Shown here: positions 23,855 through 40,043 of the stretch, piece by piece
Layout: each line of letters starts with the position of its first letter
Position numbering within the stretch: position 1 is the first letter of the stretch
From: a virus
DNA length: 60,788 bases
Virus record (IMG/VR): IMGVR_UViG_3300037070_008166
Coordinates: 1-60,788 of that record
Strand: one strand, 5' to 3'
Translations under genes and position numbers: made by a program
The notes under the pieces: model-generated
The model's input: the letters and a program-made list of their open reading frames with translations, nothing else
The model's database searches: none
What the model was told of the DNA's origin: nothing

Positions 23855-24669
23855 TGGCACACGAACTCTACTTCGCATATCCAAGCGACAATCTGTTAGC
23901 GACCGCGTCGTCTATTACCCTGTCCACTGGGACGGAGCTCGACGCCCAGTACGAACTAGACAAGTTATTCGACGGCACGTGGTACAATCCGTTCAAGGCC
24001 GTAGAAGATACGATTGCCATTGATATGGAGTGGAGCTCGCCGGTGTCGCCGGCACTCGCGATTCTCGGTAATACGAACATCACAGTTGCCGCGACTCTTC
24101 TTGGCCACACGGACGCGACGTTCGGCAGTGGCTTCCCAGATATTACCATCACCTTTGGGGTGCCGTCGGTCGACCCGTTTGGTTTCTTCACGTCACCATT
24201 TCAGGTGCCGTCGGTTGCGGCAAAGGCGCATTGGCGTCTTGTGGTGTCGGCGAATGCCTATCCGGTTATCATCGGTGAGTTGGGCTTGTATGCATCAGCT
24301 TTGGGGTTGTCACGCGCCTACAATCTGTCGTCTGCGAAACGTCTGCTTGGTGGAACAGTGTATTATGAGACGCCCGCGAAGGTTGGGTTGGCATACGAAC
24401 AATCCACTGCAGTGCGTACGATCGATGGATTCTTTATCGTACAGACCGATGCCGAACTCGCGACCGTGGAACAGCTGGTGGCGAAGACTCGCTTCCGTGC
24501 ACGGCCATTCTTCTTAATCCCGCGGGCCTCTGTCGACGACGCATGGATGGTACGATTTACCCTGGATGAACTCCAGGTCGAGACGTATGGAAGCGGAGCA
24601 CAGCGAATTAACGCGCCGATCATGATGTGCGGGCGCGGTCTCGCCCACGTGGATCCGGATACGATCTGA
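23854..24669 (+). CDS. Distal tail protein, putative
   Basis: 271 residues, beta-rich, directly after the tape measure and overlapping the hub gene (TGATG). This is the usual place of the Dit-like ring protein that starts the baseplate. Segments such as FDGTWYNPFKAVEDTIAIDMEW and AKAHWRLVVSANAYPVIIGELGL resemble a galactose-binding-like sandwich. The family is inferred from position and fold-like pattern. Confidence 0.65.
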   Translation: MAHELYFAYPSDNLLATASSITLSTGTELDAQYELDKLFDGTWYNPFKAVEDTIAIDMEWSSPVSPALAILGNTNITVAATLLGHTDATFGSGFPDITITFGVPSVDPFGFFTSPFQVPSVAAKAHWRLVVSANAYPVIIGELGLYASALGLSRAYNLSSAKRLLGGTVYYETPAKVGLAYEQSTAVRTIDGFFIVQTDAELATVEQLVAKTRFRARPFFLIPRASVDDAWMVRFTLDELQVETYGSGAQRINAPIMMCGRGLAHVDPDTI

Positions 24670-27600
24670 TGCTGAGCCTCCTGGCCCTCGGCGATGGTTT
24701 GAAACGCGATTCGGCGATCGTATCCGGCGCAGCGGATCGTACGATCATGGTGTATTTTCGTTTGTCGTCCGTACCCACTGGCGGCGACTATCGGACTTAC
24801 ATGGCGTGGGTGAAGGATGCCGCGGGCGCGTACAACCAGTGGGACGGAGCCTACTCGTCGGCGGACACGAACGCATTTAGTGTTGGCTGGAACAATGGCA
24901 CGACAGGCAACGACGTTGCGCAGCCGTTCACGCCGTCACTGAACAGGTGGTATCAGCTTGTGGTTGCGCGGCGGTCGAGTCTGAACACGCATCGGTATTA
25001 TATCGACGGACGCGAGGTGGGGCTGCGCGTGCTCGATATGTCGGCGAGCACGCTGGACACGCTGCGCCTTGGTTTCGACGAGTATTCCAACGATGCTGGC
25101 ATGGATCTCGCTCGGTTCCGCGAGTGGTCGGCGCTGCTCACGCCGAACGAAATCAAAGATGAGATGGGACATGCGACTGCCGTTCGCACGGCGAATCTCA
25201 TCGCGGACTGTCCGCTGCTGTCTGACGCCCTGGACGTGTCTGGCAATGGAAATCACTTCACGGTCATGGGATCGCCGTCGTATTTCGCGACGCCGACGCT
25301 CGCGGTTCGCCCGTCTCCGTTCTACATTCGGCATTGGACTAACGGTATACCGACCGAGATCGACGACGCATACCTGTACGAGCGGACCGGTGAGCCAAGT
25401 GGCGGTGCAGATCCAATTGACGGAACGTATCCGGAAATCATCGCTGGCGAAGGCAAGATGACACTGACGGGGAGTGGCGGCCCGCACGGCGATGGGTTCT
25501 GGGACCTCGGGCTGGCGTTTCCAAGCGCGGATTATTCGACAGGTGGTTTTTGGACCGAGTTTGGCAGCGACTATCCGGGGTCAGAATTTCATGACCTGAC
25601 GAAAGGCCGTGCCGTGGTCTATTGGCGACCGATCACGCGGTTTTGGGAGGAGGTGATCCTGGGCGGCGTCACAGGTCCGTTGATGCACCTCTCGACGCGC
25701 GGTGGTTCGGTTCAGTCGGGAATTCAGCTGACATTTGATGCCGATGAGACTGGCGGCGTGCCAGATGACGTGATGGTGGATCTGCGCACGCATCGATGGA
25801 ATAACACGACGATTAGCAGCGTCGGCTCCGCGGCCGTCAGCATCGGCTCGCGTGCGGAGCTGGAAAATGAGTGGCAGAAGTTCGAAATCGAGTGGCAGTG
25901 CGGCACCGTGACTGCGGTGGCGGTTGATACCGGCACGGGCCACGAAGTGGAGACTATCGCGAACGGGGTTGGGTCAGTCACAGACGATGGCTGGATCCGG
26001 GTGTACCACAAGAACCTCGGCACCGGCGCGCCACGCACGTTGATCTATGATCTGACCGGACTCCGATTGTTGGTGTATCGCGGTACGGATGGCGCGGCGA
26101 GCTTCCTGGGCGCGCAGCCGATCAACTCACAGATGAGTTTCTGGTGCGGCTACTATGGGATGTTTGGGCAGTTGTCGCACGTCGAGTTCTATGACGATTT
26201 GAATGAGTCTGAAGACGTCGAGCCGGAGGAGGTAGACGAACATCCCTTCACGCTTCCAGATGCACAGGGTGGTCTTGTTGGTCCACTTGTCAAGGTGCGG
26301 ATCTACAATCCATATCTTGACACGGAGTATGTGGCATCGACCCAGTGGATTCAGGACCCAATCGATTATTGGGGCGGATTTGCGGAAGCAAGCTTGCTGC
26401 GTATCGACGACATGGTCTACGCCACGTCAGATCGTAGTGGCCCACCTCAAATCACGGCACTGAGTTTTGAAATGTCCGACGTGCCTGATGGAAATACAGC
26501 CACGCCTCGCATTCGCACCTGGCTTGGTCAGATCGGTGCCCGTCAGCTTCGTCGGTGTGAGATTTGGGTGCAGATGATCACGGATACAGGTCGTCGAGCA
26601 TTACTCGAGCCACTGACCGTGTTTCGTGGATACATCGAGGAATACGAGGGCCTGGACGACTTCCGTATGTCGTTCAGCTGCTTGTGTTGGATCAACCGTT
26701 TCAAAGACCGGCCCGTATTACCACACAAGATCGGTGATATCATCCCGGCAACGACAATACCGGAAGCGAGGGATCGACGAGTTCCACTGGCATTGGGGTC
26801 ACTTACGGATGAAGGTTCAGCAGAGGACCCACCTGTGTTCATTCAAGATGAGACAGGTCGTGGGTCAAACGGTGGCGCGTCTGGCTCGTCGTCGTTCAAC
26901 CCAGACGAACCTTTCAACACATTTGGAAATGTGATTGGGGCACCACCAGCACCTACCGGGCTGGCTATGGTTGAAGACTTTGGCGCAGGCACACTCCAGT
27001 TGGCTGGTCCAGACGGTCTTGCGCATGGCAGTGCCTGGCAGAACCAGTGGTGCTTTCAAGTCACGCGTATTCGCGCGGGAATGCCGCAGAGCGATCCGTT
27101 TCCATTTGATCCAGGTGATGAATTTCTCACACTGACAGCGAATGATTCGGCGATCACGGCCACGTGCGCGGATGATGGCGATCCTGGTGACATCTATCGG
27201 TTCTACATTGGCACGTCGCCCGTTGGCGGTGCGGGCGGTCGACCAACGATGACCCACTATATTGACACCACCGACCCAGTTACCGGCGTGCAGTTCACGG
27301 ATAAGGAGATGTCATCGGGCGGAGTGCTGGCAACGAACACGCGATACTGGTGTGCTGCGTTGTGGGTTGCTGATGATGGTCGAACGGAACCATCCATCAT
27401 TCACATCACGCTACCAATTCCGTTCATCATGAGCCCCGGCTATAATCGACCGATTCGGTTTGCGTTCGTGCCACCAAGTGTAGCGGTGACAAACGGCGAA
27501 TTCTACATCGCCACCTATCCAAACAAGGATCATTTGTTTCAGAAGTTCAACATCGACGTCACGAACCTGAACACCGACCTCAATGTGCTCTGGGAGTGGG

Positions 27601-29255
27601 ACCACGTAACGCCAGGCACGGCAGTGGAAGGCATCACACAGCCGGTTGGCGTGATTCCTCCCATTTATCTAGGACTTGGCGTGATCCCTGACAACGAGGG
27701 GTTTCTTGGTTGGGGCGCATTCCTTTTGTCTGGTCGGCCCTGCAAGGAGTTCATTTCATCGTACATCGTTGGAAGCGAGGTCTTTGGGACGGGCCGTCTC
27801 GACGAGGGTTTTTACAATACCCTGATCGCTGCTCCAGGGAAAGGACAGTGGAACACACGATTCGGTCCAGATGAATTTATCACGGTGAACATCGATGGCG
27901 AGGAACACCGCCTCTACATGATGTTCATCCTCAATTCCCCACTGCTCGATACAGTGGTTGGGGCTGACGCAGCAGGCAACGCAGTGACGCAGTCGGATTT
28001 TCGTGTGAACATCCGCGGGATGGACGACGCAAAAGATGGCAGCGGGGCCGTGATTACGTCTGGATACGAACAACTTCCAATCTTACTCCGACAATTGTTG
28101 ATCGCGGATACGCCATCGATGGCCGAACCATTTGACCAAGATCCGCAGTTTCGCGATGGCACGTCGAAGGTCGACGATTTTTCCTTCTCGCACGCGCAAG
28201 ACGACGCGGCAGTCGCAGTCCCATCTGGCCCAGCGGCGGCTCGATGGATCGCCACAGGCATTACGGTTCAGGAATTGCTTACGGAGTGGGCCGTATCCAT
28301 GCGGGCGCGAGTCTATACCGATGAGTTCGGCCAGTTCGGAGTGTGCGTGACCAACCCTAACGGTGACCCAGAATACGACATCGTTGAGGCGAAGGAAGTC
28401 ATCAAAAAGACATTTCGATTTCGCGACTCGATTCAAGGCTACGGACATCGTGTGCCGTTCCGCTACAACCCACGATACAGCCTAGATGGAAGTGAAGAAT
28501 TAGTCGACGCAGATGAAGTCAGCTCACCGAGTGCGATTACAGAATCTGATGAAGACATCACGCTCTCTGAACATCTTCTTTCTTGGCGACGAGGTCTCAG
28601 TACATCGCGACAGGTGGCTCGTTCGATACTTCGCGAGTCGGAACAGATGCCCCGTGATGTTAGTCTCGATTCTGTGCTCCACTTCCTCACGCGGGCACCT
28701 CTTGGTCGACGTGTTTCGATCACGCATTCCGAAGGTCCGCAAGCCGGGGGGTGGACAAATCAAATCGTTCAGGTTCTTGGAAAACGACTGAGTCCACAGG
28801 CACTCACCGTAGGACTTACATGCCTGGACCTACGGCGCCAGGTTGGCGAACTGACGTGGCTAGACTTTGAGGGATTTATGCCTACATCATGGGGTGGTGG
28901 GTCGCGTATCGATTCATTGCTGAACGACGGAACCTACGACGTATTTCCAAACTGGATCTACTTGACCTACGATTGGGACGCGATCCCGAGCACCCATGGT
29001 CTGCGTTTGAGGGCGACCCTGGCTACCGACGCCGGCACAGTGCGGGCGGCTGTGTATGCGTCGACCGACCTCGCCACAGTGGTCGCGCAGACGGCGACAC
29101 ATAACACCAGCACGTTGACGGAGGTCGCGGTGGTGGATATTCCAAGGCCAGTTGGGGACGGTGAAGTGCGATACATGATTCGTCCAATTCTTGCGGGTGG
29201 TGCCGTGATCGCTGACGCTCGAGGAATTGTTGCGATTGAGGGCTACGAACTGTGA
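24669..29255 (+). CDS. Large tail hub / tip protein with LamG-like and Fn3-like insertions
   Basis: 1528 residues from the ATG at 24669, which overlaps the previous stop; the 14 codons upstream are in the previous gene. Residues about 15-185 look like a LamG/concanavalin-type sandwich (RWYQLVVARRSSLNTHRYYI), which could bind glycans. The hub-like core includes VFRGYIEEYEGLDDFRMSFS, a hub-domain style strand set. Residues about 757-850 resemble a fibronectin type III module (PPAPTGLAMVEDF). The C-terminal third contains YEQLPILLRQLLIAD and SIQGYGHRVPFRYNPRY. It probably forms the tail tip that contacts the cell. Confidence 0.75.
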   Translation: MLSLLALGDGLKRDSAIVSGAADRTIMVYFRLSSVPTGGDYRTYMAWVKDAAGAYNQWDGAYSSADTNAFSVGWNNGTTGNDVAQPFTPSLNRWYQLVVARRSSLNTHRYYIDGREVGLRVLDMSASTLDTLRLGFDEYSNDAGMDLARFREWSALLTPNEIKDEMGHATAVRTANLIADCPLLSDALDVSGNGNHFTVMGSPSYFATPTLAVRPSPFYIRHWTNGIPTEIDDAYLYERTGEPSGGADPIDGTYPEIIAGEGKMTLTGSGGPHGDGFWDLGLAFPSADYSTGGFWTEFGSDYPGSEFHDLTKGRAVVYWRPITRFWEEVILGGVTGPLMHLSTRGGSVQSGIQLTFDADETGGVPDDVMVDLRTHRWNNTTISSVGSAAVSIGSRAELENEWQKFEIEWQCGTVTAVAVDTGTGHEVETIANGVGSVTDDGWIRVYHKNLGTGAPRTLIYDLTGLRLLVYRGTDGAASFLGAQPINSQMSFWCGYYGMFGQLSHVEFYDDLNESEDVEPEEVDEHPFTLPDAQGGLVGPLVKVRIYNPYLDTEYVASTQWIQDPIDYWGGFAEASLLRIDDMVYATSDRSGPPQITALSFEMSDVPDGNTATPRIRTWLGQIGARQLRRCEIWVQMITDTGRRALLEPLTVFRGYIEEYEGLDDFRMSFSCLCWINRFKDRPVLPHKIGDIIPATTIPEARDRRVPLALGSLTDEGSAEDPPVFIQDETGRGSNGGASGSSSFNPDEPFNTFGNVIGAPPAPTGLAMVEDFGAGTLQLAGPDGLAHGSAWQNQWCFQVTRIRAGMPQSDPFPFDPGDEFLTLTANDSAITATCADDGDPGDIYRFYIGTSPVGGAGGRPTMTHYIDTTDPVTGVQFTDKEMSSGGVLATNTRYWCAALWVADDGRTEPSIIHITLPIPFIMSPGYNRPIRFAFVPPSVAVTNGEFYIATYPNKDHLFQKFNIDVTNLNTDLNVLWEWDHVTPGTAVEGITQPVGVIPPIYLGLGVIPDNEGFLGWGAFLLSGRPCKEFISSYIVGSEVFGTGRLDEGFYNTLIAAPGKGQWNTRFGPDEFITVNIDGEEHRLYMMFILNSPLLDTVVGADAAGNAVTQSDFRVNIRGMDDAKDGSGAVITSGYEQLPILLRQLLIADTPSMAEPFDQDPQFRDGTSKVDDFSFSHAQDDAAVAVPSGPAAARWIATGITVQELLTEWAVSMRARVYTDEFGQFGVCVTNPNGDPEYDIVEAKEVIKKTFRFRDSIQGYGHRVPFRYNPRYSLDGSEELVDADEVSSPSAITESDEDITLSEHLLSWRRGLSTSRQVARSILRESEQMPRDVSLDSVLHFLTRAPLGRRVSITHSEGPQAGGWTNQIVQVLGKRLSPQALTVGLTCLDLRRQVGELTWLDFEGFMPTSWGGGSRIDSLLNDGTYDVFPNWIYLTYDWDAIPSTHGLRLRATLATDAGTVRAAVYASTDLATVVAQTATHNTSTLTEVAVVDIPRPVGDGEVRYMIRPILAGGAVIADARGIVAIEGYEL

Positions 29256-30118
29256 AAAAACTTCTAACGATCCTTTTTCTTCTCGTTGCCTCCGTTGTCG
29301 AGGCGCAAGTTCGCGACGGAACGAGCTTCCGTCTCGTTCCCTCGAACAAGGCGATGGTCGCGTGCACGGATCCGACTTCGGGCGGGGGCCAGGCAGCTGT
29401 CACCGGAACGATCTGTCTGGGTACGGCTGGCATCTATCGGAAGTTCAGCACCGGAGCGACTGATTGGATCTTGATTGCAACTGGAGGAATTACCATTCCG
29501 ACGGGAACGAGTGGTGGAGTGCCATATTACAGCAGCACAACGACCATCGGTTCGAGCGCCCTGCTCATCGCGAACTTGCCGATGTTCGGCGGTGGCGCGG
29601 GCGCCACGCCATTCACGGGAACTCGAACGGGTAACACAACAGAACTCGCGTCTTGGACCGGGGCAAAGACTTCCGGTGATTGCGTTCAAATCAACGCGAG
29701 CGGCAACTTGGAAGTTTCTGGCAGTTCATGTGGCGGCGGTTCTGCTACAAACTATCATATCGCAGCGCAGATCGGAGATGGCGTCAACGTCATCTCGACC
29801 GGTTGGCAAGGATGTTCGTTCGTGCCTCACACTGGCACGATTACAAGTGTAACGCTCGCGTCGACCGATGCGGCAAGTCCTACGTCTGGTTCGATTGTGG
29901 TTGATTTGTGGAAGGATAGTTACGCGAACTTTCCACCAGATAACGGCGATTCGATCACAAGCGCGACGCCACCAACAATTTCTTCGACCATCAAGAGTCA
30001 AGATACGACATTGTCAAGTTGGGGAACGTCGTTGTCGGCGGGTGACTTTGTCTGCTACAACGTGGACTCAGTGACGACCTTTACGAAGGTGAATCTGTGG
30101 ATCAGGATCAACCCATGA
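29252..30118 (+). CDS. Tail-fibre-like protein with Sec signal peptide
   Basis: 288 residues. The first 19 residues are a textbook Sec signal peptide: basic MKK, hydrophobic LLTILFLLVASV and a cleavage site after VEA before Q. The following region has phage fibre phrases (SGGVPYYSSTTTIGSSALL and MFGGGAGATPFTGTRTG), then a beta-rich C-terminal domain. A secretion signal on a virion fibre is unexpected, since fibres normally assemble in the cytoplasm. It may be exported for another purpose, or the signal may be retained as a trimer tip. Overlaps both neighbours by four bases. Confidence 0.75.
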   Translation: MKKLLTILFLLVASVVEAQVRDGTSFRLVPSNKAMVACTDPTSGGGQAAVTGTICLGTAGIYRKFSTGATDWILIATGGITIPTGTSGGVPYYSSTTTIGSSALLIANLPMFGGGAGATPFTGTRTGNTTELASWTGAKTSGDCVQINASGNLEVSGSSCGGGSATNYHIAAQIGDGVNVISTGWQGCSFVPHTGTITSVTLASTDAASPTSGSIVVDLWKDSYANFPPDNGDSITSATPPTISSTIKSQDTTLSSWGTSLSAGDFVCYNVDSVTTFTKVNLWIRINP

Positions 30119-31278
30119 ATAAATTGCTCGGTGCTTTTGTCGCTTTTTTCCTTGGCGCGTCGATATGTCACGCGCAGAGTGTCACGTCTATTCCGGCTTT
30201 TGACTTTGTTATTCCTCACGGCGGAGAGCATGGCGCAAACGGTTTCACGTTGAACGCTGCGAACGAAAATGGTCAAGTCGTCGGCACAATCTTCATGCAA
30301 GGTGGGAGTGGCACCAAGACGATTTCCGCAGGAGGTGGTGGAAGTATCTTTATATGGGCCGGATCTTCGACATGGGCAACCGCCTCGAGTGAACTTCGTG
30401 TTGGTATCGAGGATCTTAGTTCTGCGGGAATAGGAGATACCACCCAGGATGTGTATGGTGCTAAGATTGCCGGAACTGACTCAATCGTTGCACCACACCT
30501 AATTAACTGGGACATGACAAGCGGTACGAAGACTCTCACGCACGGCGATCCTATCGCTATATCAACACGTATGCCTGTCCGCGCTGGGGCAGACAGTGTG
30601 GCGTTCGGAACGTGGACGTGGACTCCAGGTTACGCAGGAACTGGTCGTCCCTACGGCGTAGCCAACAGTGCTAAGACGTCGGAAATGCTCTACGCAGTTA
30701 TTAAGTTTGATGACGGCACGTATGGTTGGATTCAAGGCGCTCAGAATATCCAAGCGCCGGCAGCGACCGTCACATATGGGAACGCATCTACGCCAGACGA
30801 ATACATCGCTACATTCACGGTCTCCGTTCCCATCCAAATCTCTCGGATCGGGCAGCCGATAGATGATGCCGCCGCCGCGGATCTGTATGACTTAAATTTG
30901 TTCACTGACCCTTACGGAACGCCGACTGCGGTCCGGACAGTAAACGTGGACCCAGATGCCTTTACCAATGAGGGCGCGACCCCGATGTTCATCTTTACTG
31001 ACATTGCGGTTTACACACTAATTCCTGGCGTGACGTATGGGATCGGTCAACGACCGTCGACCGCGAACACAATCACGATGGGCTACATCAACGTTGAGAC
31101 AGGATTTGAGGGTCTTAAGGCCACGCTTCCTTTGGTAGAGAATGTGAAGCTCGCATCACGTTCAGACCAAACTGGAGCGTTTGTAGAAACACAGGTCTAT
31201 CACATTCCGTACTTCGGATTTACCATTGTCGGTTTGGGATCTAGTGGCAGTGGTGGCGCCAGATCATTTACGTTCTAA
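30115..31278 (+). CDS. Second signal-peptide surface or fibre protein
   Basis: 387 residues from the ATG at 30115, which overlaps the previous TGA (ATGA); the six codons upstream are discarded. Residues 1-21 form a signal peptide: MNKLLGAFVAFFLGASICHA, then Q. The mature part is beta-rich with jelly-roll-like strands (FDFVIPHGGEHGANGFTLN, YIATFTVSVPIQISRIGQ) and a Gly/Ser-rich end. No family is recognised. Its pairing with the previous gene suggests joint action at the cell surface. Confidence 0.7.
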   Translation: MNKLLGAFVAFFLGASICHAQSVTSIPAFDFVIPHGGEHGANGFTLNAANENGQVVGTIFMQGGSGTKTISAGGGGSIFIWAGSSTWATASSELRVGIEDLSSAGIGDTTQDVYGAKIAGTDSIVAPHLINWDMTSGTKTLTHGDPIAISTRMPVRAGADSVAFGTWTWTPGYAGTGRPYGVANSAKTSEMLYAVIKFDDGTYGWIQGAQNIQAPAATVTYGNASTPDEYIATFTVSVPIQISRIGQPIDDAAAADLYDLNLFTDPYGTPTAVRTVNVDPDAFTNEGATPMFIFTDIAVYTLIPGVTYGIGQRPSTANTITMGYINVETGFEGLKATLPLVENVKLASRSDQTGAFVETQVYHIPYFGFTIVGLGSSGSGGARSFTF

Positions 31279-31544
31279 TGGACCTCACAACATTAACCAA
31301 AGCTACCGAGGTCATTTCACAAGGAGGATTTCTCCTCGTGCTGGTGGCCATGGTGTGGGCGGGTTACAAGCAGAAGTGGGTGTGGGGACACCAGCTCACG
31401 GACATGGAGGAAGACCGTGATTACTGGCGAGGACTCTATCACACGAAAGTTCAGGAGTTAGAAACAGACTATCGGAAACTGTTAGCAGCCGCGCTCGTGG
31501 CGCGGGAAAAGAACAAGGTGCGGCATGATGGCGAAGCTTCGTAG
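31278..31544 (+). CDS. Small membrane protein, holin-like or spanin-like
   Basis: 88 residues: one N-terminal membrane helix (GGFLLVLVAMVWAGY), then a charged, coiled-coil cytoplasmic or periplasmic tail (MEEDRDYWRGLYHTKVQELETDYRKLL). This layout is common for phage membrane proteins beside lysis genes. It starts within the TAATG overlap of the previous gene and overlaps the next by 20 bases. Holin versus inner spanin cannot be decided. Confidence 0.6.
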   Translation: MDLTTLTKATEVISQGGFLLVLVAMVWAGYKQKWVWGHQLTDMEEDRDYWRGLYHTKVQELETDYRKLLAAALVAREKNKVRHDGEAS

Positions 31545-31692
31545 CTGGCTCAAAGTCCTCGGCTACCGTCGTCCATCGCGAGTTACCTCCCATGACTTGG
31601 CGTTGCGTGAGATAGCAGAACGGCGGGTCGATCGACTGCTGATCATGAAGAAACGAATTGAAGCATTGACTCCCCGGAGGGGACCTTGGTGA
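31525..31692 (+). CDS. 55-residue basic protein in the lysis block
   Basis: Starts with two consecutive ATG codons at 31525 and 31528. The protein is strongly basic, with an amphipathic helix (HDLALREIAERRVDRLLIMKK) and an end TPRRGPW. The TGA overlaps the GTG start of the next gene. Its role is unknown; the tight packing in the lysis block supports a real gene. Confidence 0.5.
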   Translation: MMAKLRSWLKVLGYRRPSRVTSHDLALREIAERRVDRLLIMKKRIEALTPRRGPW

Positions 31693-32099
31693 ACCTAACC
31701 GTTTGGTCACTGATTTGGCTGCGAGCTGGTGTTGGCTTGTTCGCGTTTGGTCTCTGTGTTGTGCTCTTTCTACACATTCGTCGTGACCGAACTGCGATGT
31801 TACTCGCCGGGGAGAACGGCATGAAGGCTGAGATTCTTACTGGCGAAATGCGTGGATTACGTTCGGAGGGCAAATGGTTGTTGGCGATGGCCATCACTGC
31901 TTCCATTCGAGTCGTATCGGAGGTAGTTGGTTGGCTGCATGGAGAGACGTCGCCTCCGTGGGATGTCGGTGCCCTGCTTGGTACGATTGTCATTCTGGCG
32001 TTCACGATGGACTCCGTTTGGGTAATTGTCGCCAAGCGACGGGAACGACAGCGACTGTTCACTCTGGCAGCGGCAATTAGACGTGGAGGCGAGGTGTGA
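31689..32099 (+). CDS. Three-helix membrane protein, probable holin
   Basis: 136 residues from a GTG at 31689 (a TTG one codon upstream is an alternative), with GGAGG ahead. Three hydrophobic segments are visible: IWLRAGVGLFAFGLCVVLFL, WLLAMAITASIRVVSEVVGW and ALLGTIVILAFTMDSVWVIV, followed by a basic tail. A three-helix protein just before the endolysin is the class I holin arrangement. Confidence 0.6.
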   Translation: MNLTVWSLIWLRAGVGLFAFGLCVVLFLHIRRDRTAMLLAGENGMKAEILTGEMRGLRSEGKWLLAMAITASIRVVSEVVGWLHGETSPPWDVGALLGTIVILAFTMDSVWVIVAKRRERQRLFTLAAAIRRGGEV

Positions 32100-32560
32100 G
32101 ACTGACATTATTCGACACGGCGATGCGATTCGCTGGTGATGTAAAAGAAATCACTGGCACGAAGCACGACCCGGCGATTATTTGGTTCCAGCGGTCGTGC
32201 GACGTGACTATCAACAACGATGAGGTCGCATGGTGCAGTGGCTTCCTCAATCGGATGGCATGGTTACACCGATTACCACGCTCCAAGAGTTTGGCTGCGC
32301 GGAGCTGGCTGATTGTTGGTGAACCGATTGCGTTGACCGAGGCGACTGCAGCCTGGGACATCGTGATACTGAAGCGTGGGAAAGGCCCGCAGCCCGGTCC
32401 CGACGTGCTCCAAGCACAGGGCCATGTGGGATTGTTCGCTCGACTCGACGGTCCTCTGGTGTATCTGCTGGCTGGCAATCAGTCGAACGCCGTGACCATT
32501 CAACCATTTCCAATCACCGACGTGCTTGGTGTGCGTCGACTTTTCAAGGAGACACTCTGA
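32096..32560 (+). CDS. Endolysin, TIGR02594/CHAP-like peptidoglycan hydrolase
   Basis: 154 residues from a GTG overlapping the previous TGA. The NlpC/P60-CHAP pattern is visible: nucleophile C47 in DEVAWCSGFLNRMAW, AWDIVILKRG and the catalytic His in QGHVGLFARLDG (H110). The family cleaves peptide bonds in peptidoglycan. No signal peptide or binding domain is present, so release needs a holin. Confidence 0.82.
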   Translation: MRLTLFDTAMRFAGDVKEITGTKHDPAIIWFQRSCDVTINNDEVAWCSGFLNRMAWLHRLPRSKSLAARSWLIVGEPIALTEATAAWDIVILKRGKGPQPGPDVLQAQGHVGLFARLDGPLVYLLAGNQSNAVTIQPFPITDVLGVRRLFKETL

Positions 32561-33000
32561 TGTTTCGTCACACTCGTTCGTGGTTCATTCTCTTGGCGTT
32601 GTTCCTGTTCGTTGGGCTCACTCCCATTCTCTTTGCTCAGGCAGCTGATGCGGCGGGCGTTCCAGTCCCTGCCGACTCAGCAAACGAGTGGGGTGGTGCG
32701 TTGGTTTGGGCGTTCTTTTCATCTTCCACCCTGGAGTGGTTGAAACGCAATAAGACCCTGACCATCTTGACGGAGCAAACGGCGTGGTTCGCACAGCGTC
32801 TCATTGGTGTGGCGTTGGCAGTGGCTGCTGCCGTTGGTGTGCATTGGTCGTTTGATCCAGTGGCCGGTGAGCTCGTGGTGGGTGGGCTAATTTGGTCATC
32901 GGTTTGGACACTTGGCACCGAAGCGATTCGACAGTGGGTGCTTCAAGAACTGACCTATCGAACGGCGGTCCGTTCATATCACCCGCAAGCAACCACTTAG
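32560..33000 (+). CDS. Membrane protein with signal-like N-terminus, holin or lysis accessory
   Basis: 146 residues, starting within TGATG at the endolysin stop. The N-terminal segment WFILLALFLFVGLTPILFAQA could be a cleaved signal peptide or a signal anchor. Two further hydrophobic segments follow (LIGVALAVAAAVGVHWSF and ELVVGGLIWSSVWTLGTEA). A second membrane protein directly after the endolysin suggests a holin/antiholin pair, which is inference. Confidence 0.6.
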   Translation: MFRHTRSWFILLALFLFVGLTPILFAQAADAAGVPVPADSANEWGGALVWAFFSSSTLEWLKRNKTLTILTEQTAWFAQRLIGVALAVAAAVGVHWSFDPVAGELVVGGLIWSSVWTLGTEAIRQWVLQELTYRTAVRSYHPQATT

Positions 33001-33024
33001 TCCTAGCTATTTCCATGCGGAGTG

Positions 33025-33033
33025 TGATATAAT
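33025..33033 (+). promoter_or_regulatory. Extended -10 promoter TGATATAAT
   Basis: The sequence TG-A-TATAAT is a perfect extended -10 element, 25 bases after the preceding stop and about 20 bases before the lipoprotein start at 33053. No good -35 is present, as tolerated by extended -10 promoters. It may give the lipoprotein its own expression, possibly from the host sigma factor. Confidence 0.5.
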
Positions 33034-33052
33034 GACTGGGGAGAATTTCACC

Positions 33053-33532
33053 ATGCGTAAATTGCTCGCAACGATTTCACTCGTTGCCATCATCGTTGGT
33101 TGCTCGTCACTTCCAGCCAAACAGGTGGCAGTTCAGAGCAATCGGGTCGCTGGCCAAACCATCTGGGCGTTGCAGGACGCGGAACGTCGTCTCTGCAATC
33201 CGGCATCGTTCGACAAGGACCCGCTGGTCCCCATCCGGGAGTGCGTCGGCCCAGTGGCGGAAGCGGCCAAATTGACGACCGAGAACCACCGGAAGTTCGC
33301 CGCCGTGCTCGAACGTGCTTACACGTTGCGTATTCGAGTGGACAAGGCTTTACTGTCCTGGCAACCAGGAGCCCCGGCTCCGGCTGAACTGCCTGGTCTT
33401 CGAGACGCGGCAGCGGAAGCCTTGCAACTGGCTCGAGCGCTGGCCCAGACGCCTCAGCAACAGCAACTCGTTGATCTCGCCACGACGGTGGTCAACGAGG
33501 TTCAGAAGATCATTAACGTCGTTCGGAGCTAG
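33053..33532 (+). CDS. Lipoprotein, possible outer-membrane spanin or surface factor
   Basis: 159 residues from the ATG at 33053; the in-frame ATG at 33032 sits on the -10 element. The N-terminus MRKLLATISLVAIIVGCSS has a lipobox (I-V-G-C), so it is probably lipid-anchored, consistent with a Gram-negative host. The mature part is helical and Ala/Gln-rich (EALQLARALAQTPQQQQ). It sits at the end of the lysis block, so a spanin-like role is possible; it is longer than most outer spanins. Confidence 0.65.
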   Translation: MRKLLATISLVAIIVGCSSLPAKQVAVQSNRVAGQTIWALQDAERRLCNPASFDKDPLVPIRECVGPVAEAAKLTTENHRKFAAVLERAYTLRIRVDKALLSWQPGAPAPAELPGLRDAAAEALQLARALAQTPQQQQLVDLATTVVNEVQKIINVVRS

Positions 33533-33541
33533 GAGATTTCC

Positions 33542-33781
33542 ATGGCTATTGACCTGATCAAACTTCAGGCAAACATCGGGGCATATTCGTCGATCGTGCA
33601 GATTGCACTGGCGACGGGAAAGTTGCTTGCACCGCACATTCGCGACTTCGTTGGCTGGCTGGCCCACAAGCGTGGGGAGGTGCTGTCGAACGAAGAGCTC
33701 GACGCGATCACGCAGGGTGTTCTCGAACAGGATACGATTCGTCACATGATTGCCGCGGCCGAAGCGGCCCCGGAAGCTTAA
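33542..33781 (+). CDS. 79-residue helical protein, unknown
   Basis: Preceded by AGGAGATTTCC. The sequence has an amphipathic N-terminal half (KLQANIGAYSSIVQIALATGKLL) and an acidic C-terminus (EELDAITQGVLEQDTIRHM). No membrane segment or family is recognised. It closes the lysis block before a structured intergenic region. Confidence 0.55.
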   Translation: MAIDLIKLQANIGAYSSIVQIALATGKLLAPHIRDFVGWLAHKRGEVLSNEELDAITQGVLEQDTIRHMIAAAEAAPEA

Positions 33782-33796
33782 GGATTTGCCTAGAAA

Positions 33797-33869
33797 ACCG
33801 CTGTGGGACGTTGTGTCCGGACACCGGGTAGTTACGTCTAGCCGGAGTTCTGATAACGCCCCCAGCGGT
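33797..33869 (+). ncRNA. Structured intergenic element, possible regulatory RNA
   Basis: The 126 bases without a gene hold a long imperfect stem: ACCGCTGTGGGACGTT (33797-33812) pairs with AACGCCCCCAGCGGT (33855-33869) with one bulge and one mismatch. The enclosed loop contains the perfect palindrome GTGTCCGGACAC and a CCGG-rich arm. No U-run follows, so it is not a standard terminator. It may be an RNA leader for the spike gene at 33908. Structure is read by eye only. Confidence 0.35.
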
Positions 33870-33907
33870 CGCCTGGGCCGCCCAAATACGGACTGAGGAC
33901 GCGGACT

Positions 33908-35749
33908 ATGTCCACTTTCATGTCGTACTCGACGCTCGGGTCACTGGTGGCTGGTTTCCAGCCTCTTGCGGTCCGTGATCGTGGAATGGCATGGCGGGAC
34001 ATCACTGACAGCGACTGTAACACACCTGCATGGCTGAATGACACAGTCGTCATCTATCAACAGGGTGCGTATTCGAACGAGGGTCGTTCCGCGTATCTTG
34101 CCACCACAGATGGTCGTCGATTCAAACGCCAAGCGAGTCGGCTTTTCGCGGGCGGCAACCGATGGGTTGCCTCGCACGAAGCGCCGGACCCGGACGGTGT
34201 GAGTTCAGCGGTTCTCCATGATGGTGAAGGACGCACTCTTTGGGGTGATCGGAAATCGCCCACAGATCCTGTCGGTGGCCAGGCAGGCCCGAGTCGCATC
34301 TACTGGGGTGCGGGTCAGCATGGTGTCGGTCGTGATGGCACCCTCGCCTATTGCCCTCGTTACCATCAGGGCCGCGGAGTTATCATTGAGGATGCCGTCG
34401 GGAATCAACTGAATCGCACGGATGGCATTCCCGTGACGTCCTGTTCGGTCATTGACCGCAACGCGATTGGCGTGTTCTCTGCTGCCGACATCATGGGTCT
34501 CTGGTTCTGGAACGGTTCCACCTGGACGCGGTATCCGTTGGCGTTTCCTTGCTATGAAGGCCAGATTGTTCGGTGGAAATCAGACATCTACGTGCTGGAA
34601 GGCAGTGAGCAAATTGCTGTTCACAAGATTGATGATTCGACGAAAGGATGGGTCTTCGGGCTCTCCGGCAAAGGATACAACGCCGTTGGCTGGGAAGACG
34701 AGTCGAACGATCTCTATATCGCATGGTCTGAAAACGCGCCCGCCACGAAAGGAGCAGTCAAAGAAACCAAGCTAGTCGGTTCCGCGCAGCCGTGGCCCCT
34801 TCCTGTCTTCGAACCACCTCGTACCACACGTCAAATTTGGCGTGGCGTTGATGGTTCGAAGAGTGACGGTTCCGTGGTCACACAGCTTGGAAATTTCGCA
34901 TGGGGCCAGCCGGCAGACAAGCGTCTGGTCTTCGAAGGCATGCCGTGGGCGTCAGCCGTCACACAGAAGCTGTTGACTCTGTATCTCAGCACCGAAAACA
35001 CCCCACCCGTTGATTCGACAATCCAGGAAGCGAAGAAGCGGAGATGCGGAATCGCCGTCTACTGCGACGCGTTCCTGTGGACGTCGGCTGCAGAGAAGAT
35101 CGCGCAGAAGTGCCTCACGGAGAAGGTGCCTATCATTCGTGTGGTCCAAGCCTATCTCGTGGAAGACGAGAGTGCTGGTGCCGCGATCGCCCGCGTGAAA
35201 CGACAGGTGGACATTGTCAAAGGCAAGCCGGACAAGAGCGGAGTCGGCTTGATGCAACGAGCCGACCTTCCGTCATCAAAGACGAAGGAAGCCACACTGC
35301 GTGAGTTCACTCATCGTTGCGAGAACCTAATCACGGCGCAGTCGTCGATCGTGTTCCAGGCGATCTTCGGTGCACGACGACCCGGTGTCGTTGCCGCCGT
35401 GATGTCGTACCTGAATACCGCGATTTCCAACATGCGGACGGGTCTCCCGCCCGCGTTGCCTGGTTACAAGCCACCTCCACCCAAACCCGAACCACCGACG
35501 GAGCCTGATATGCCCTGTGTGATCGACGGATATTCGTACGAACGATGGGTCGAACTCGGCGCGAAGATCGATCGCCGATATCGCGAGGTCAACAAGTCCG
35601 CGGGTGGTCAGGGTGACCAGCCGCCAGCTGGCAGTGACGTCAACCACAACACGTGGCGCGTGCTGGCGGAGGGAATGTCCGAGGCCGAGATGCTGGCCCG
35701 CATTGATCCAGCATGGCAGCCGGGGATGAACCTCCCGGATTTCCAATAG
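33908..35749 (+). CDS. Tail spike-like protein, propeller-like N-terminus and TIM-barrel-like domain
   Basis: 613 residues. Residues about 1-310 consist of repeated short beta units with WxxxG/D turns (GLWFWNGSTWTRYPL, GYNAVGWEDESNDLYIAW), suggesting a beta-propeller. Residues about 335-520 look like an alpha/beta barrel (GIAVYCDAFLWTS, KVPIIRVVQAYLVEDE, SSIVFQAIFGARRPG), possibly a glycoside hydrolase. A Pro-rich hinge (YKPPPPKPEPPTEP) leads to a small C-terminal domain. No catalytic residues can be named with confidence. The 3' end overlaps the next gene by 37 bases. Confidence 0.55.
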   Translation: MSTFMSYSTLGSLVAGFQPLAVRDRGMAWRDITDSDCNTPAWLNDTVVIYQQGAYSNEGRSAYLATTDGRRFKRQASRLFAGGNRWVASHEAPDPDGVSSAVLHDGEGRTLWGDRKSPTDPVGGQAGPSRIYWGAGQHGVGRDGTLAYCPRYHQGRGVIIEDAVGNQLNRTDGIPVTSCSVIDRNAIGVFSAADIMGLWFWNGSTWTRYPLAFPCYEGQIVRWKSDIYVLEGSEQIAVHKIDDSTKGWVFGLSGKGYNAVGWEDESNDLYIAWSENAPATKGAVKETKLVGSAQPWPLPVFEPPRTTRQIWRGVDGSKSDGSVVTQLGNFAWGQPADKRLVFEGMPWASAVTQKLLTLYLSTENTPPVDSTIQEAKKRRCGIAVYCDAFLWTSAAEKIAQKCLTEKVPIIRVVQAYLVEDESAGAAIARVKRQVDIVKGKPDKSGVGLMQRADLPSSKTKEATLREFTHRCENLITAQSSIVFQAIFGARRPGVVAAVMSYLNTAISNMRTGLPPALPGYKPPPPKPEPPTEPDMPCVIDGYSYERWVELGAKIDRRYREVNKSAGGQGDQPPAGSDVNHNTWRVLAEGMSEAEMLARIDPAWQPGMNLPDFQ

Positions 35750-36678
35750 GGCCGGATGTTCCCGGAGGTCCGATACCTCCGGCCCTGATCAGTCCTTGGC
35801 TCCCGAGTGGTGATTGGCCCACCTGCTTGCCAGAAGACGTGGGTATGGATTCGGCCAAGCTGAACGCCATTCGAGAGTCCGTCGTCGGCTACGGCGTCGT
35901 GTCTCGTTATGGCAAGGTCTTCAAGACGTGGCTCGACCCGCACCGCAACTTCACCAGCTGGGCGTCATCCGCGCGAGCGGGCGTGTCCATGTCCACCTGG
36001 ATGCGCGACCTGACCCTTGGTCGAATCGGCAAAGGTCTGGCGAGTCTCGAGGAATCAGTTCGCAATTTGAATGGTCCAGCTGCGGCGGCATTGCCCGCCG
36101 AGCTGCTGTTGTGTCAGATGCTCGGTTACTGCAACGAGCATGGTCGTTGGCATTACAGTCAGTTCTGGCGAGTGGCCGACGACGTGTTCCGCGAGAATCA
36201 ACCGGATGGTCGCGAGATTCATCAGGTGTTCAACGATGAGATGCGCGGTGTCTTCCAGGGATGGACGGCGGTGGAGAACGACGAAGATGGCACGCCACGC
36301 TTCAACGGGACACCCTGGAACGCGATGCGCTGGGGCGCGTGGCTATTGGATGAACTCCGTGGCGTGAACCACTTCATTTCGTCGGACCTCATGCGCCGAG
36401 TCATCGGCGGCGGTCCGTTTGGAAATGGGACGGGCACGAATCAACCGAACGAGGGAATGCAAGTCCATCTCGTCATGAACGAGATGATGTGGGAGGATCC
36501 GCACGAACTGCGTGTGCCTGGCGTTCCCAATCATACGGCGATGGCTCGTGATGGCGGCGACGGCGGCACGTCGAATGGCACCATCATCGCCATTCCAGAG
36601 TACGGCATCGCGATGGCGCATCGAGGACCAGTCGATGCGTCTCACATACTGCCGCAATTGTGTGCGGCAGTCAACTGA
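35713..36678 (+). CDS. Beta-lactamase-fold (serine hydrolase-like) protein, catalytic motifs degenerate
   Basis: 321 residues. GMDSAKLNAIRESVVGYGVVSRYGKVFKTW resembles the opening of class C beta-lactamase-like proteins, WHYSQFWRVADD stands where the Y-x-N helix lies, and AMAHRGPVDASHILPQL resembles the final strand and helix. The expected S-x-x-K nucleophile appears as SWASSARAG, so activity is doubtful and a binding role is possible. The frame is -1 relative to the upstream gene and the first 40 residues are a Gly/Pro-rich tether. An initiator at 35713 or 35845 cannot be distinguished. Confidence 0.5.
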   Translation: MAAGDEPPGFPIGPDVPGGPIPPALISPWLPSGDWPTCLPEDVGMDSAKLNAIRESVVGYGVVSRYGKVFKTWLDPHRNFTSWASSARAGVSMSTWMRDLTLGRIGKGLASLEESVRNLNGPAAAALPAELLLCQMLGYCNEHGRWHYSQFWRVADDVFRENQPDGREIHQVFNDEMRGVFQGWTAVENDEDGTPRFNGTPWNAMRWGAWLLDELRGVNHFISSDLMRRVIGGGPFGNGTGTNQPNEGMQVHLVMNEMMWEDPHELRVPGVPNHTAMARDGGDGGTSNGTIIAIPEYGIAMAHRGPVDASHILPQLCAAVN

Positions 36679-36688
36679 AGGAGAAGAT

Positions 36689-36952
36689 ATGGATAGCACA
36701 CAGCACGAAGAGGGACGCGTACACGTGTACGAGAAGATGAAGGCGGCTGGCGGGAGACCGGTCGCCGTGGCCGAGGCACTGCTCACCGGACTGGCGGACG
36801 GCTTGGAAAAGATGGTTGGCCAGACGATCACGCAGGAATTCGTCGACAAAGTTCGCTCGGACATCCCGGAGATGCTCGAAGGATTCGGCGGACCGAAAGT
36901 GCATGGTCGCTCGGAACCGCATCTGCCGCCTGGGCAGGTGAAGAAGCAGTAG
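36689..36952 (+). CDS. 87-residue helical protein, unknown
   Basis: Starts at the ATG at 36689 with GAAGGAG upstream; the longer in-frame ORF from 36512 lies inside the previous gene. The sequence is an amphipathic helical bundle (GRPVAVAEALLTGLADGLEKM) with a Gly/Pro-rich C-terminus. No family is recognised. It lies between the hydrolase-like gene and the J-domain protein. Confidence 0.6.
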   Translation: MDSTQHEEGRVHVYEKMKAAGGRPVAVAEALLTGLADGLEKMVGQTITQEFVDKVRSDIPEMLEGFGGPKVHGRSEPHLPPGQVKKQ

Positions 36953-36954
36953 GA

Positions 36955-37455
36955 ATGAAGCTCGCGGTGCAATTTGGCAATCGTCCGGCGTTCGTCATCG
37001 TGGACGGCGTCAGCGTGTACGTTGGGGGCCATGACGTGTGGCACATCGCACAGCGCAAGCTCCTTCGGGAGCGGGCGATTGCCGTGCACCCGGATTCGGG
37101 CGGGTCGCGGGACGCGTTTGGAAAAGCCCAAATCGCACGACGAGGATTTATGAACCGGGAGCGAGCGTGGTATGCGCATATTAGGATGACGCCACCTGGA
37201 TGTGCACCGAAAACTCGTTGGTGCATGCTGTCCAAACGAATTGTGCAGATACTCAGATGCAGCGATTCGACATTCAGTGGAATTTGTCTGGAACTGGAAT
37301 TGCACCGAAAGCACTCTCGAGTTCGGAATGTGGTCAACCGACTGCTTCGTCTCGGCGTCATTGAAACCTATTCCTTATCTTCACTGAGGCAGAAACGTGG
37401 CCGTGTGGCAACCACCCACTATCGACTTACGAAACTGGAGGAACAGGTGTCATGA
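36955..37455 (+). CDS. J-domain-like protein with C-terminal winged helix
   Basis: 166 residues. The stretch LLRERAIAVHPDSGGSRDAF includes the HPD tripeptide and flanking helices of a J-domain (DnaK co-chaperone contact). Residues about 95-160 form a winged-helix-like DNA-binding domain (RIVQILRCSDSTFSG, VRNVVNRLLRLGVIETYSL). A J-domain-like HPD segment of this type occurs in other environmental phages as I recall, but its role is unknown. It may recruit host DnaK or regulate transcription of the fibre genes. Confidence 0.6.
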   Translation: MKLAVQFGNRPAFVIVDGVSVYVGGHDVWHIAQRKLLRERAIAVHPDSGGSRDAFGKAQIARRGFMNRERAWYAHIRMTPPGCAPKTRWCMLSKRIVQILRCSDSTFSGICLELELHRKHSRVRNVVNRLLRLGVIETYSLSSLRQKRGRVATTHYRLTKLEEQVS

Positions 37456-40043
37456 AGTTGTTCATTTCGACTGTTGTGGGGCTCGTGTTTTTGTTCGTAC
37501 CACTGATGGCGCAAACGCCCATGCACGGGATGAATGTCGAGGTGCAGGCTGACCGCATCCTCATCGGCGGCGAGTTCGTGCCACGGCCGCTGAACCTGCC
37601 CGCCGTGAAGGTCGTTGCGCTGGGCGAGGACAAGGCCATCGACCCGGCAACCTACGATTACATCGAGGTGCAAGGGACGGCGACGATGCTATCGGGAACC
37701 GTGAACGTCACGCACCTGTTCATCTTTCCAGGCGCCACGCTCCGGGTCGCGTGCGGTGTGACGCTTGTTGGCCGGAACGTCCCTATCAACACAGGCTCCG
37801 ACCCGTTTCAGTGGGGCAACGGGCTCTTGAACTTTGGCACGTTTGTCTCAGACTGCCCGGAGGAGACGCCGTTTCTGCCGACGACGGCCCCGCTGGCGGC
37901 GAACGCCACACAGCTCACGTTGTCGGCGGACCCGGTCGGGTGGACGGCGGGTGACGAGCTGGTGCTGCCGGACACGCGTCAGTCTGGTCAGACGGGTTCG
38001 GCCCTGACTCCGCGTCGAGAGACGGGCACGCTCATCAAGAACATCACCGGACGTATCGTCACGCTGTCGAAGCCGCTCGCGTTCGCGCGTGACTCGGTGA
38101 AAATACCGGACGGCAGCGTCGTGCTCCAACCGCGCGTCGGCAACCTGACGCGCCGCACGGTGATCAAGAGCGAAGATCCAAACGGTGTGCGGTGGCACAT
38201 CGCGATGGTTGGCGCGGGGGCCGGGTGGGACGTGCGTGGAACGTCGTTTGTGGGCCTCGGCCGAACGCGGAACGAGAAGCTCAACAACACGACGCAGGGT
38301 TCCGGCTCGCAGATCGGTACAAACCAAGTCGGTCGCTACGTGTTTCACGATCACCATACGTGGACCTCGTTCGCGATGCGACGCTTCTCCGGCAACGCCA
38401 TCGACAGCAAGAACCTCGGCAAGTGGGGTGTTGTGGTGCATCAGTCGCATGATGCGATCTTCGAGAACAATATCTGCGTGGACACGCCGGGCGCGTGTTT
38501 TTCGACCGAGGACGGCAACGAGGTGCGGAACGTGTTTCGCGGCAACTTCGCGGCCTACGTGAAGGGCAACGGAACCGAGGCGAGGGAGAACGTCATCAAT
38601 GGCAACGACTGCCGTGGGTGCGAGTCGGCCATGTGGTTCGCGGGCGTTGGGAACATCATTGAGAAGAACGAGGCGTGGAACAGTCAGAACGGCATCGACC
38701 TGTTCAACATCTTCCCGCTGGCGGCGGGCGTACAGGTGCCGACAGCGAAGGGCGCGTCGACGACGATGGTCCCGGTGCTGCCGGACATGGTGCCGATCTC
38801 CATGAAGGATAACGTCGTGTGCGGCAACACGGACGGCGGGTCGGTTTACTGGCAGCTGCTGGAGTTCCCGAACGAGCGGCTGATCGCCTGCAACAACGCG
38901 ACGTTCCAAGCGAAGAACGGGGCACCGAACGGACCGAGCTTCATCTACCTCACAGACGCAAAGCTGGTATGCACAGGCGGGGTGGCCACGGCCCTCGGAT
39001 CGTCGAGCGGCTACAACGCGGGCGTGGTCGATGAGCGCGGCCAGTATCGTGGCTGCGGGACCGGCGTGGCGGGTGGCATGGGGAAGGTGAAGGGCCACTT
39101 CACGGGCACGGTGTTTCAGAACGTGTTGAACATCAATTTGCAGCAGCCACAGTCGTGGGCGGCGGACATTCGGTTCACCGACGTCATGCACGTGCCGCTG
39201 CCCGGGAACGCTCCGTTCTACTTCTACTTTGACCGTGAGGGTCCGTGGCCCGGTCCGCCCGCCCCGTTGCCTGAAACGTCTGGGTGGGCCTATATGCACG
39301 GCTCGCGAATTCACATCAAGAACTGGCAAGGCACCGGCAAGGACTACGACCTGTTGCCGCCCGCCTCAGAGCGCAGCGGTCGCGCGTGGGTCACAACGGA
39401 CTTTGAGAACCTCTGGCAGATTCCGCCGGACGAATGTGGCGCGACCATTGGGGAGATTTGGGACAAGTGTGGGCTGGCCTATGGCGGTGAGGCGTATGCC
39501 GCCAGCGAGGGCGTCGCACTGACGGGCGTGCAGTTCGAGGTGGGCGTTCCGGCCCCACGCCCGCCGCTGAATGCGCCGGAGTGCGTGCTGACAGCTCCAA
39601 ACATGCGCGGTCCTGCCGTGCTCGGCTATGGCGGCTACATCCCGCTGTACCTCGCGATGACCGGGCAGCTTGAGGGTGCGGACCGAACGTGCTATCTCAG
39701 CATCGACGGCGGACCGACGATCGCGGCGAACGGCGGCTCGGCCAGCCCGAACTGGGTCCGACACTGGACTACAGTGGTTGGCACTGGGACGCATACCGTG
39801 CGCTCTTGGCGGCAGTTGAACGGTGTGGTGGTTGGGCCATCGTTCACCGTGTCATATCGCGTCGGTCCCGGTGGCGGCACGCCTCCGCCTGACCCACCGA
39901 CACCTGTGAATTGCGCGCTGTCGGCGGTGTCCTCGTCCGCCTCTGTGTGGACGCTAAGTGGGACGATGTACACGCGTACGATCACGGAAACCAAGACGAT
40001 CGTGACGGCTCCGGCCAACGGCGGCACGCCGTGCCAACCATAG
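37452..40043 (+). CDS. G8-domain / right-handed beta-helix surface protein with signal peptide
   Basis: 863 residues. Residues 1-21 form a signal peptide (MKLFISTVVGLVFLFVPLMA, then Q). A G8-like domain follows (YDYIEVQGTATMLSG, HLFIFPGATLRVACG), then parallel beta-helix repeats (VVVHQSHDAIFENNICVD, GNIIEKNEAWNSQNGIDLF) as in CEMIP/PKHD1L1-related proteins and polysaccharide-degrading spikes. The C-terminus has a Pro-rich hinge (GGGTPPPDPPTP) and a short beta domain. Base composition looks more GC-rich than the neighbours, suggesting separate acquisition. Depolymerase or adhesin are the main options. Confidence 0.7.
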   Translation: MKLFISTVVGLVFLFVPLMAQTPMHGMNVEVQADRILIGGEFVPRPLNLPAVKVVALGEDKAIDPATYDYIEVQGTATMLSGTVNVTHLFIFPGATLRVACGVTLVGRNVPINTGSDPFQWGNGLLNFGTFVSDCPEETPFLPTTAPLAANATQLTLSADPVGWTAGDELVLPDTRQSGQTGSALTPRRETGTLIKNITGRIVTLSKPLAFARDSVKIPDGSVVLQPRVGNLTRRTVIKSEDPNGVRWHIAMVGAGAGWDVRGTSFVGLGRTRNEKLNNTTQGSGSQIGTNQVGRYVFHDHHTWTSFAMRRFSGNAIDSKNLGKWGVVVHQSHDAIFENNICVDTPGACFSTEDGNEVRNVFRGNFAAYVKGNGTEARENVINGNDCRGCESAMWFAGVGNIIEKNEAWNSQNGIDLFNIFPLAAGVQVPTAKGASTTMVPVLPDMVPISMKDNVVCGNTDGGSVYWQLLEFPNERLIACNNATFQAKNGAPNGPSFIYLTDAKLVCTGGVATALGSSSGYNAGVVDERGQYRGCGTGVAGGMGKVKGHFTGTVFQNVLNINLQQPQSWAADIRFTDVMHVPLPGNAPFYFYFDREGPWPGPPAPLPETSGWAYMHGSRIHIKNWQGTGKDYDLLPPASERSGRAWVTTDFENLWQIPPDECGATIGEIWDKCGLAYGGEAYAASEGVALTGVQFEVGVPAPRPPLNAPECVLTAPNMRGPAVLGYGGYIPLYLAMTGQLEGADRTCYLSIDGGPTIAANGGSASPNWVRHWTTVVGTGTHTVRSWRQLNGVVVGPSFTVSYRVGPGGGTPPPDPPTPVNCALSAVSSSASVWTLSGTMYTRTITETKTIVTAPANGGTPCQP

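Follow-up and report, generated by a model that had tools for sequence, protein, structure and literature searches.

Predicted Sec signal peptides on fibre-region proteins of a phage and on tail-fibre relatives in other phages

Tail fibres decide the host range of a phage, and the usual assumption is that their synthesis and assembly take place in the cytoplasm. Why, then, should several proteins of a fibre region begin with what look like signals for export? The question was raised by a preliminary description of the DNA studied here, which listed five such proteins (29252, 30115, 32560, 33053 and 37452; genes are named by their start positions). The window, the whole stretch that we analysed, is a 60,788-base IMG/VR virus record with a GC content of 58%, in which terminase, portal, head and tape-measure genes are recognised. 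Downstream of the tape measure, a 1542 aa protein is followed by 29252, 30115, a lysis cassette, several genes of unknown function, 37452 and more fibre genes.

24627 to 29255, plus strand: 1542 aa protein, probably a J-like tail tip or host-specificity protein, judged only by its position between the tape measure and 29252.
29252 to 30118, plus strand: fibre protein of 288 aa, signal-fronted and with 6 mature cysteines; its GTG start overlaps the stop of 24627.
29252 to 29305, plus strand: predicted Sec/SPase I signal peptide of 29252, MKKLLTILFLLVASVVEA^Q, 18 residues, score 12.3, no TM-like 19-residue window.
29744 to 30115, plus strand: C-terminal fibre jelly-roll domain of 29252, residues 165-288 (phrog_35197, E 1.9e-21; phrog_10330, virion structural, E 6e-8).
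30115 to 31278, plus strand: protein of 387 aa, signal-fronted by its score, without a mature cysteine; its relative elsewhere has no signal.
30115 to 30174, plus strand: predicted signal peptide of 30115, MNKLLGAFVAFFLGASICHA^Q, 20 residues, score 10.2.
37452 to 40043, plus strand: signal-fronted protein of 863 aa with a CEMIP-type beta-helix (PF24606, E 1.9e-12) and 16 mature cysteines.
37452 to 37511, plus strand: predicted signal peptide of 37452, MKLFISTVVGLVFLFVPLMA^Q, 20 residues, score 12.1.

The signal score is our own rule-based heuristic, which combines a charged n-region, a hydrophobic core of 9-14 residues and small residues at -3/-1, with a cut-off of 9. Among 70 E. coli K-12 CDS, all 7 proteins that we take from general knowledge to be exported scored above 9, as did 5 of the other 63, namely four membrane proteins (by their first helices) and carB; the score is thus fooled mainly by first membrane helices. 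For lambda, 3 of 46 CDS exceeded 9 (lom, rexB and Rz), with no head, tail or fibre gene among them.

By this measure the clear signal peptides previously described on 29252, 30115 and 37452 are upheld. Each of these proteins has, at its start, a charged n-region, a hydrophobic core within the range of 7-15 residues and small residues at -3/-1, as expected of Sec/SPase I substrates. The starts of 29252, 30115, 32560 and 37452 overlap the stop codon of the gene upstream, indicating translational coupling, and the annotated starts of the three proteins are therefore very probably real. A 19-residue TM window scan found no further membrane segment in 29252 or 30115; 37452 has one more hydrophobic window (residue 89), which lies ahead of the predicted beta-helix and which we read as beta core. 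The reported A-Q cleavage sites recur at all three clear SPase I sites, while 32560 has A^Q only as an alternative to a better-scoring AQA^A. Signal-bearing ORFs number 5 of the 43 tabulated (484 to 46925), and all of them fall among the 13 in 29252-40043; the chance of such clustering is 0.0013 for all five and 0.023 for the three non-lysis ORFs. Chance or wrong starts are rejected on account of the coupled starts, the coherent signals and the absence of signal-bearing neighbours downstream of signal-less fibres described below (0/113). Judged from their sequences, 29252, 30115 and 37452 are very likely exported via the host Sec pathway.

The remaining two of the five proteins are of another kind, and they belong to the lysis cassette.

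31278 to 31544, plus strand: Rz-like inner spanin candidate (phrog_1152, E 0.003; one TM window).
31686 to 32099, plus strand: holin candidate, from its two TM windows and position.
32096 to 32560, plus strand: endolysin-like protein (TIGR02594, E 1.2e-14, 54.7 bits, below the cut-off of 70.55; phrog_1259, E 6e-15).
32560 to 33000, plus strand: holin-like membrane protein with an N-terminal signal or anchor (score 13.3; second TM window at residue 76).
33053 to 33532, plus strand: lipoprotein of the lysis cassette, outer-spanin candidate (lipobox, Cys17).

The likely signal of 32560 and the lipobox of 33053 were both seen as described, but the two are not fibre proteins, because they are located in the lysis cassette with the 32096 endolysin and because 32560 has a second TM window. 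Membership of the cassette is itself an ordinary reason for a signal, and a single fibre-region group of five proteins is thereby ruled out. SAR endolysins and lysis lipoproteins are also a phage use of Sec (accessible text of PMC3765740), which accounts for 33053 and probably for 32560. In contrast, no muralytic domain was recognised in 29252, 30115 or 37452 with Pfam, PHROG or NCBIfam.

What kind of proteins are the other three? Behind the signal of 29252, the tail-fibre motifs noted earlier correspond to a fibre-type C-terminal domain, seen by PHROG, in the predicted structure and by PDB fold. The last 124 residues are modelled as a jelly roll, mostly with pLDDT > 90, and the best-matching PDB structure is the Agrobacterium phage 7-7-1 tail fibre (Z 9.6 and rmsd 2.3 over 102 residues). 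The next matches follow closely (Z 9.1 and 8.9) and show that the fold is common, so this match is support rather than proof. Viral structure matches of the domain are tail-fibre and collagen-type fibre proteins, and its cyanophage sequence relatives are annotated as virion structural proteins; no relatives of the domain were found in genome_contigs. For 30115 the predicted structure is poor (pLDDT 37). Its single relative found outside the window virus (L027, 35% identical) starts without any signal and sits in the tail region of another virus, with a minor-tail match nearby.

37452 resembles the CEMIP/TMEM2 family by PF24606 (47.8 bits, above the curated cut-off of 27.3; the same family at window 38310-38717). 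It differs from members of that family in being phage-encoded and in that no G8 domain is detected by Pfam at E 1, a G8-like pattern being discernible by eye only. A weak PDB match was to cell surface hyaluronidase (8c6i, E 0.48). In viral_contigs, relatives of 37452 were found on only two contigs, both from the window's own virus, and in genome_contigs there were none. Beyond the window itself, two contigs represent this virus; they add no divergence, since neither departs from the window anywhere in the part compared (window 14627-41978 at most). Cultured phages gave no DNA match to window 24-44 kb, no tblastn match at 1e-5 for 29252, 37452 or 24627, and none at E 1 for 30115; the 24627 protein has no family match. 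Two further sizeable late proteins between the lysis cassette and 37452 (33908-35749 and 35713-36678) matched no family in Pfam, PHROG or NCBIfam.

To what extent is a signal usual for such fibres? Two profile scans and a first search yielded 163 complete fibre ORFs with the 29252 domain, or 119 distinct ones (< 90% identity), after exclusion of loci with an open 5' end, repeats (L035-L037 and L118), same-virus contigs with an open end (L002 and L004) and ORFs >= 90% identical to a kept one. Only 5 of the 119 distinct viral fibres carry a signal, four by the automatic rule (the window virus, L085, L110 and L154) and one, L167, below the cut-off and called by eye. Together with the signal-less relative of 30115, this agrees with the earlier remark that export is unusual for fibres. 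Since the five contigs differ in GC (40-68%), in their unrelated signals and in their N-terminal bodies, the signal was probably gained several times. The fibre domain was probably borrowed from ordinary virion fibres, repeatedly, by addition of a signal peptide.

A signal on the fibre was accompanied by a signal on its neighbour. The next gene was also signal-bearing for 4/4 automatically called fibres (5/5 with L167), versus 0/113 signal-less fibres with a downstream ORF, one without such an ORF being left out (Fisher 5.7e-9, or 6.5e-7 when L167 is placed among the signal-less fibres). In both L110 and L154, three signal-bearing genes follow one another. Companion genes encode a beta-helix (PF13229) in L110 and, in L167, a lectin-like domain of F5/8 type C that matches weakly, below its curated cut-off; by sequence, these are comparable in kind to the predicted CEMIP helix of 37452. 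No signal is present on FLC9 gp64, which is related in part to the L085 companion. L154 also has a reverse transcriptase (2798-3805; phrog_1423, E 4e-113). With an Mtd-like protein (PF21916) and a Mu-type portal nearby, it probably marks a diversity-generating retroelement next to the run of signal-fronted fibre genes.

Signals also occur on a second fibre family, which includes proteins of cultured phages. Xanthomonas phage PBR31, reached via terminase relatives, has a signal on gp35, a 'putative structural protein' encoded after the tail spike. A relative of gp35 is encoded by BcepC6B, a Burkholderia phage: gp19, which carries the annotation 'tail fiber protein', also has a signal and lies directly upstream of two holins, an endolysin and spanins. 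The C-terminal parts of both match fibre ends of Pectobacterium and Klebsiella phages, and SAA231, the one matching fibre checked, has no signal. Like 29252, gp19 and gp35 are signal-fronted, adjoin tail spike or fibre genes and share a C-terminal domain with signal-less tail fibres; like the proteins of the signal-bearing cassettes above, they have even numbers of mature cysteines (4 and 2). They differ from 29252 in that their C-terminal domain is of another fibre family and that a holin comes next, with no second signal-fronted gene. The accessible part of the PBR31 paper mentions a signal peptide only for gp40 (PMC10975493).

A scan with gp35 and gp19 gave 80 proteins, 71 of them distinct, and 70 after one open-ended sequence was dropped. 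Of these fibres 35 are signal-fronted and 35 signal-less, a ratio that is no frequency, because the signal itself served as one of two search patterns and gp35-like proteins were favoured in the ranking. The signals are diverse, while after the cut most signal-fronted members start with one of three conserved motifs, one of which also begins the signal-less fibres L235 and L269. The tandem pattern of the first family was not found here, the next gene being signal-bearing for 3/35 signal-fronted and 5/35 signal-less fibres. Among other cultured phages scored, Erebus had 1/31 CDS above the cut-off (a short gene) and MW202867 had 0/25. In the part of the JC1 (Bcep22-like) proteomics report available, only one of three fibres, gp56, is given as detected (PMC9144972). 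The expectation that the undetected JC1 fibres bear signals was unsupported, as none of four fibres of the related BcepIL02 exceeded 9 among 19 CDS (best 8.53).

Cysteine numbers offer a further line of evidence on export. Exported bacterial proteins favour even cysteine numbers (PMC7678975, accessible text). Even mature counts were found in 11/11 cysteine-bearing cassette proteins from five viruses (p 0.0005), of which the first seven revealed the pattern and four, from L154 and L167, were added later; the count leaves out 30115 (no cysteine), L154 7042 (truncated by the end of its contig, with 1 cysteine in the part present) and the lipoprotein of the lysis cassette. For the second family, signal-fronted members comprise 25 even, 6 odd and 4 without cysteine (even 25/31), and signal-less members 6 even, 14 odd and 15 without (even 6/20; Fisher 4e-4). 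Signal-less fibres of the first family listed with any cysteine were even in 18/37 cases, counted by hand. The even counts thus speak, independently of the signals, for real export with disulfide formation in the periplasm, and disulfides in the cysteine-bearing proteins are quite likely.

We propose that 29252, 30115 and 37452 are late phage proteins that would be exported by the host Sec system and cut by signal peptidase I, the cysteine-bearing ones folding with disulfide bonds in the periplasm. There they may be retained until the cell is lysed by the products of the neighbouring cassette, a step included because the exit of a soluble protein from an unlysed diderm cell is otherwise unexplained; release at lysis seems fairly probable. 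As to what follows, we lean slightly towards action outside the virion. 29252, as a detached fibre head, and its partner 30115 could occupy receptor glycan on debris or neighbouring cells, while the CEMIP-like beta-helix of 37452 could bind or trim polysaccharide, so that fewer progeny would be lost to debris and the way to new hosts would be opened. Action on surface glycans is the weakest step. What makes receptor saturation on debris and opening of the matrix attractive is the place of the genes in the late module, close to lysis genes; T5 Llp, moreover, is a precedent for receptor blocking by a phage protein. Taken whole, from late export to free proteins acting on surface glycans, the account is in our view evenly poised between right and wrong.

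Among the roles suggested at the outset (decoy, depolymerase released at lysis, extracytoplasmic fibre and surface exclusion), export followed by release is the best fit to the even numbers of mature cysteines, to the return of the arrangement in phages that are not related and to companions of lectin or polysaccharide type, and none of the present findings speaks specifically for surface exclusion. Against it stand the lack of a mature cysteine in 30115, the 6/31 odd counts and the missing tandem pattern in the second family.

Alternatively, the proteins could be virion parts made outside the cytoplasm, exported for their disulfides and joined to tails only once the contents of periplasm and cytoplasm mix at lysis. 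The fibre domain is a virion domain elsewhere, and the coupling of 29252 to a tail gene and the likeness of second-family mature N-termini to L235 and L269 would suit a virion protein. However, no attachment domain stands out in 29252, residues 11-74 being modelled only poorly (pLDDT < 50), and separate signal-less fibre genes, such as 42858 (phrog_863, E 1e-23), could serve the virion; we consider this alternative unlikely.

Equally improbable, in our estimate, are moron roles at the cell surface or in the periplasm during infection or lysogeny, such as superinfection exclusion, Lom- or Llp-like receptor blocking, or envelope modification. Lambda lom is likewise a signal-bearing gene directly after J, ahead of the side tail fibre genes, and BcepC6B and PBR31 carry integrases. 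Lom, however, is an outer-membrane beta-barrel (accessible text of PMC12309495), whereas the model of 29252 shows a fibre jelly roll and no such barrel; in addition, the genes lie in the late module, and none of the window proteins scanned was recognised as an integrase or repressor. Signal-bearing genes of Porphyromonas gingivalis phages, proposed as host-envelope modifiers, also expose Gln after the cut (Q-rule), but in the part of the source available these five genes are of unknown function and not described as fibres (PMC10367356). That the N-termini are merely hydrophobic tails kept on cytoplasmic virion proteins is very improbable: the detection is heuristic and first membrane helices also score, but the short n-regions, 12-14 residue cores and AXA-like sites, the lack of a further TM window in 10/10 related cassette proteins and 33/35 second-family proteins, the cysteine parity, and the cores of gp35 and gp19, which have diverged yet stay hydrophobic, all argue against it.

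Export followed by release would add to the known phage exports, namely Lom (PMC12309495), SAR endolysins and spanins (PMC3765740) and the P. gingivalis Q-rule proteins (PMC10367356), as far as the accessible texts go. Signal-fronted fibres would be one more kind of exported phage protein, in this case made from fibre modules; no description of them as a class was found in the literature searched, which mostly lacks subscription journals. Their recurrence in dozens of phages, two of them lab-grown, suggests a little-noticed class of fibre-like proteins sent out of the cytoplasm. If so, some 'tail fiber' annotations, such as that of BcepC6B gp19, are not ordinary virion fibres, receptor predictions from such genes may be misleading, and secreted proteins would give phages an additional means of acting on receptors or matrix. 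The cultured carriers make the export question directly testable. More speculatively, and with low confidence, tailed phages may include a widespread class that makes fibres outside the cytoplasm, secreted and oxidised in the periplasm and only at lysis joined to virions or used free, for receptor saturation or glycan processing; part of the infectious machinery would then be made in a second compartment.

The cleavage sites also bear on the host. Gln follows the cut at the 3/3 clear window sites, at the alternative site of 32560 and in 12/35 second-family proteins. Gln at +1 could point to Bacteroidota (PMC5837995, accessible text), with which the GC content of the window and the cysteine-rich mature proteins fit poorly.

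Several other window genes stood out. Between the head and tail genes lie an aminotransferase (12748-13863; phrog_3139, E 4e-64) and a glycosyltransferase (15842-17185; phrog_2170, E 4e-30), which suggest sugar-nucleotide or surface-glycan modification genes within the structural module. The portal protein (1875-5978) is unusually long at 1367 aa, with the portal profile at residues 20-474 and a weak RNA-ligase-like match at residues 539-628 (phrog_755, E 1e-5). A 961 aa protein (6015-8900) has two CxxC-pair clusters (Cys 644-694) with zinc-ribbon-like spacing, and a 729 aa late protein (44356-46545) consists in part of many degenerate ~23-residue repeats, the direct repeats often lying ~69 nt apart.
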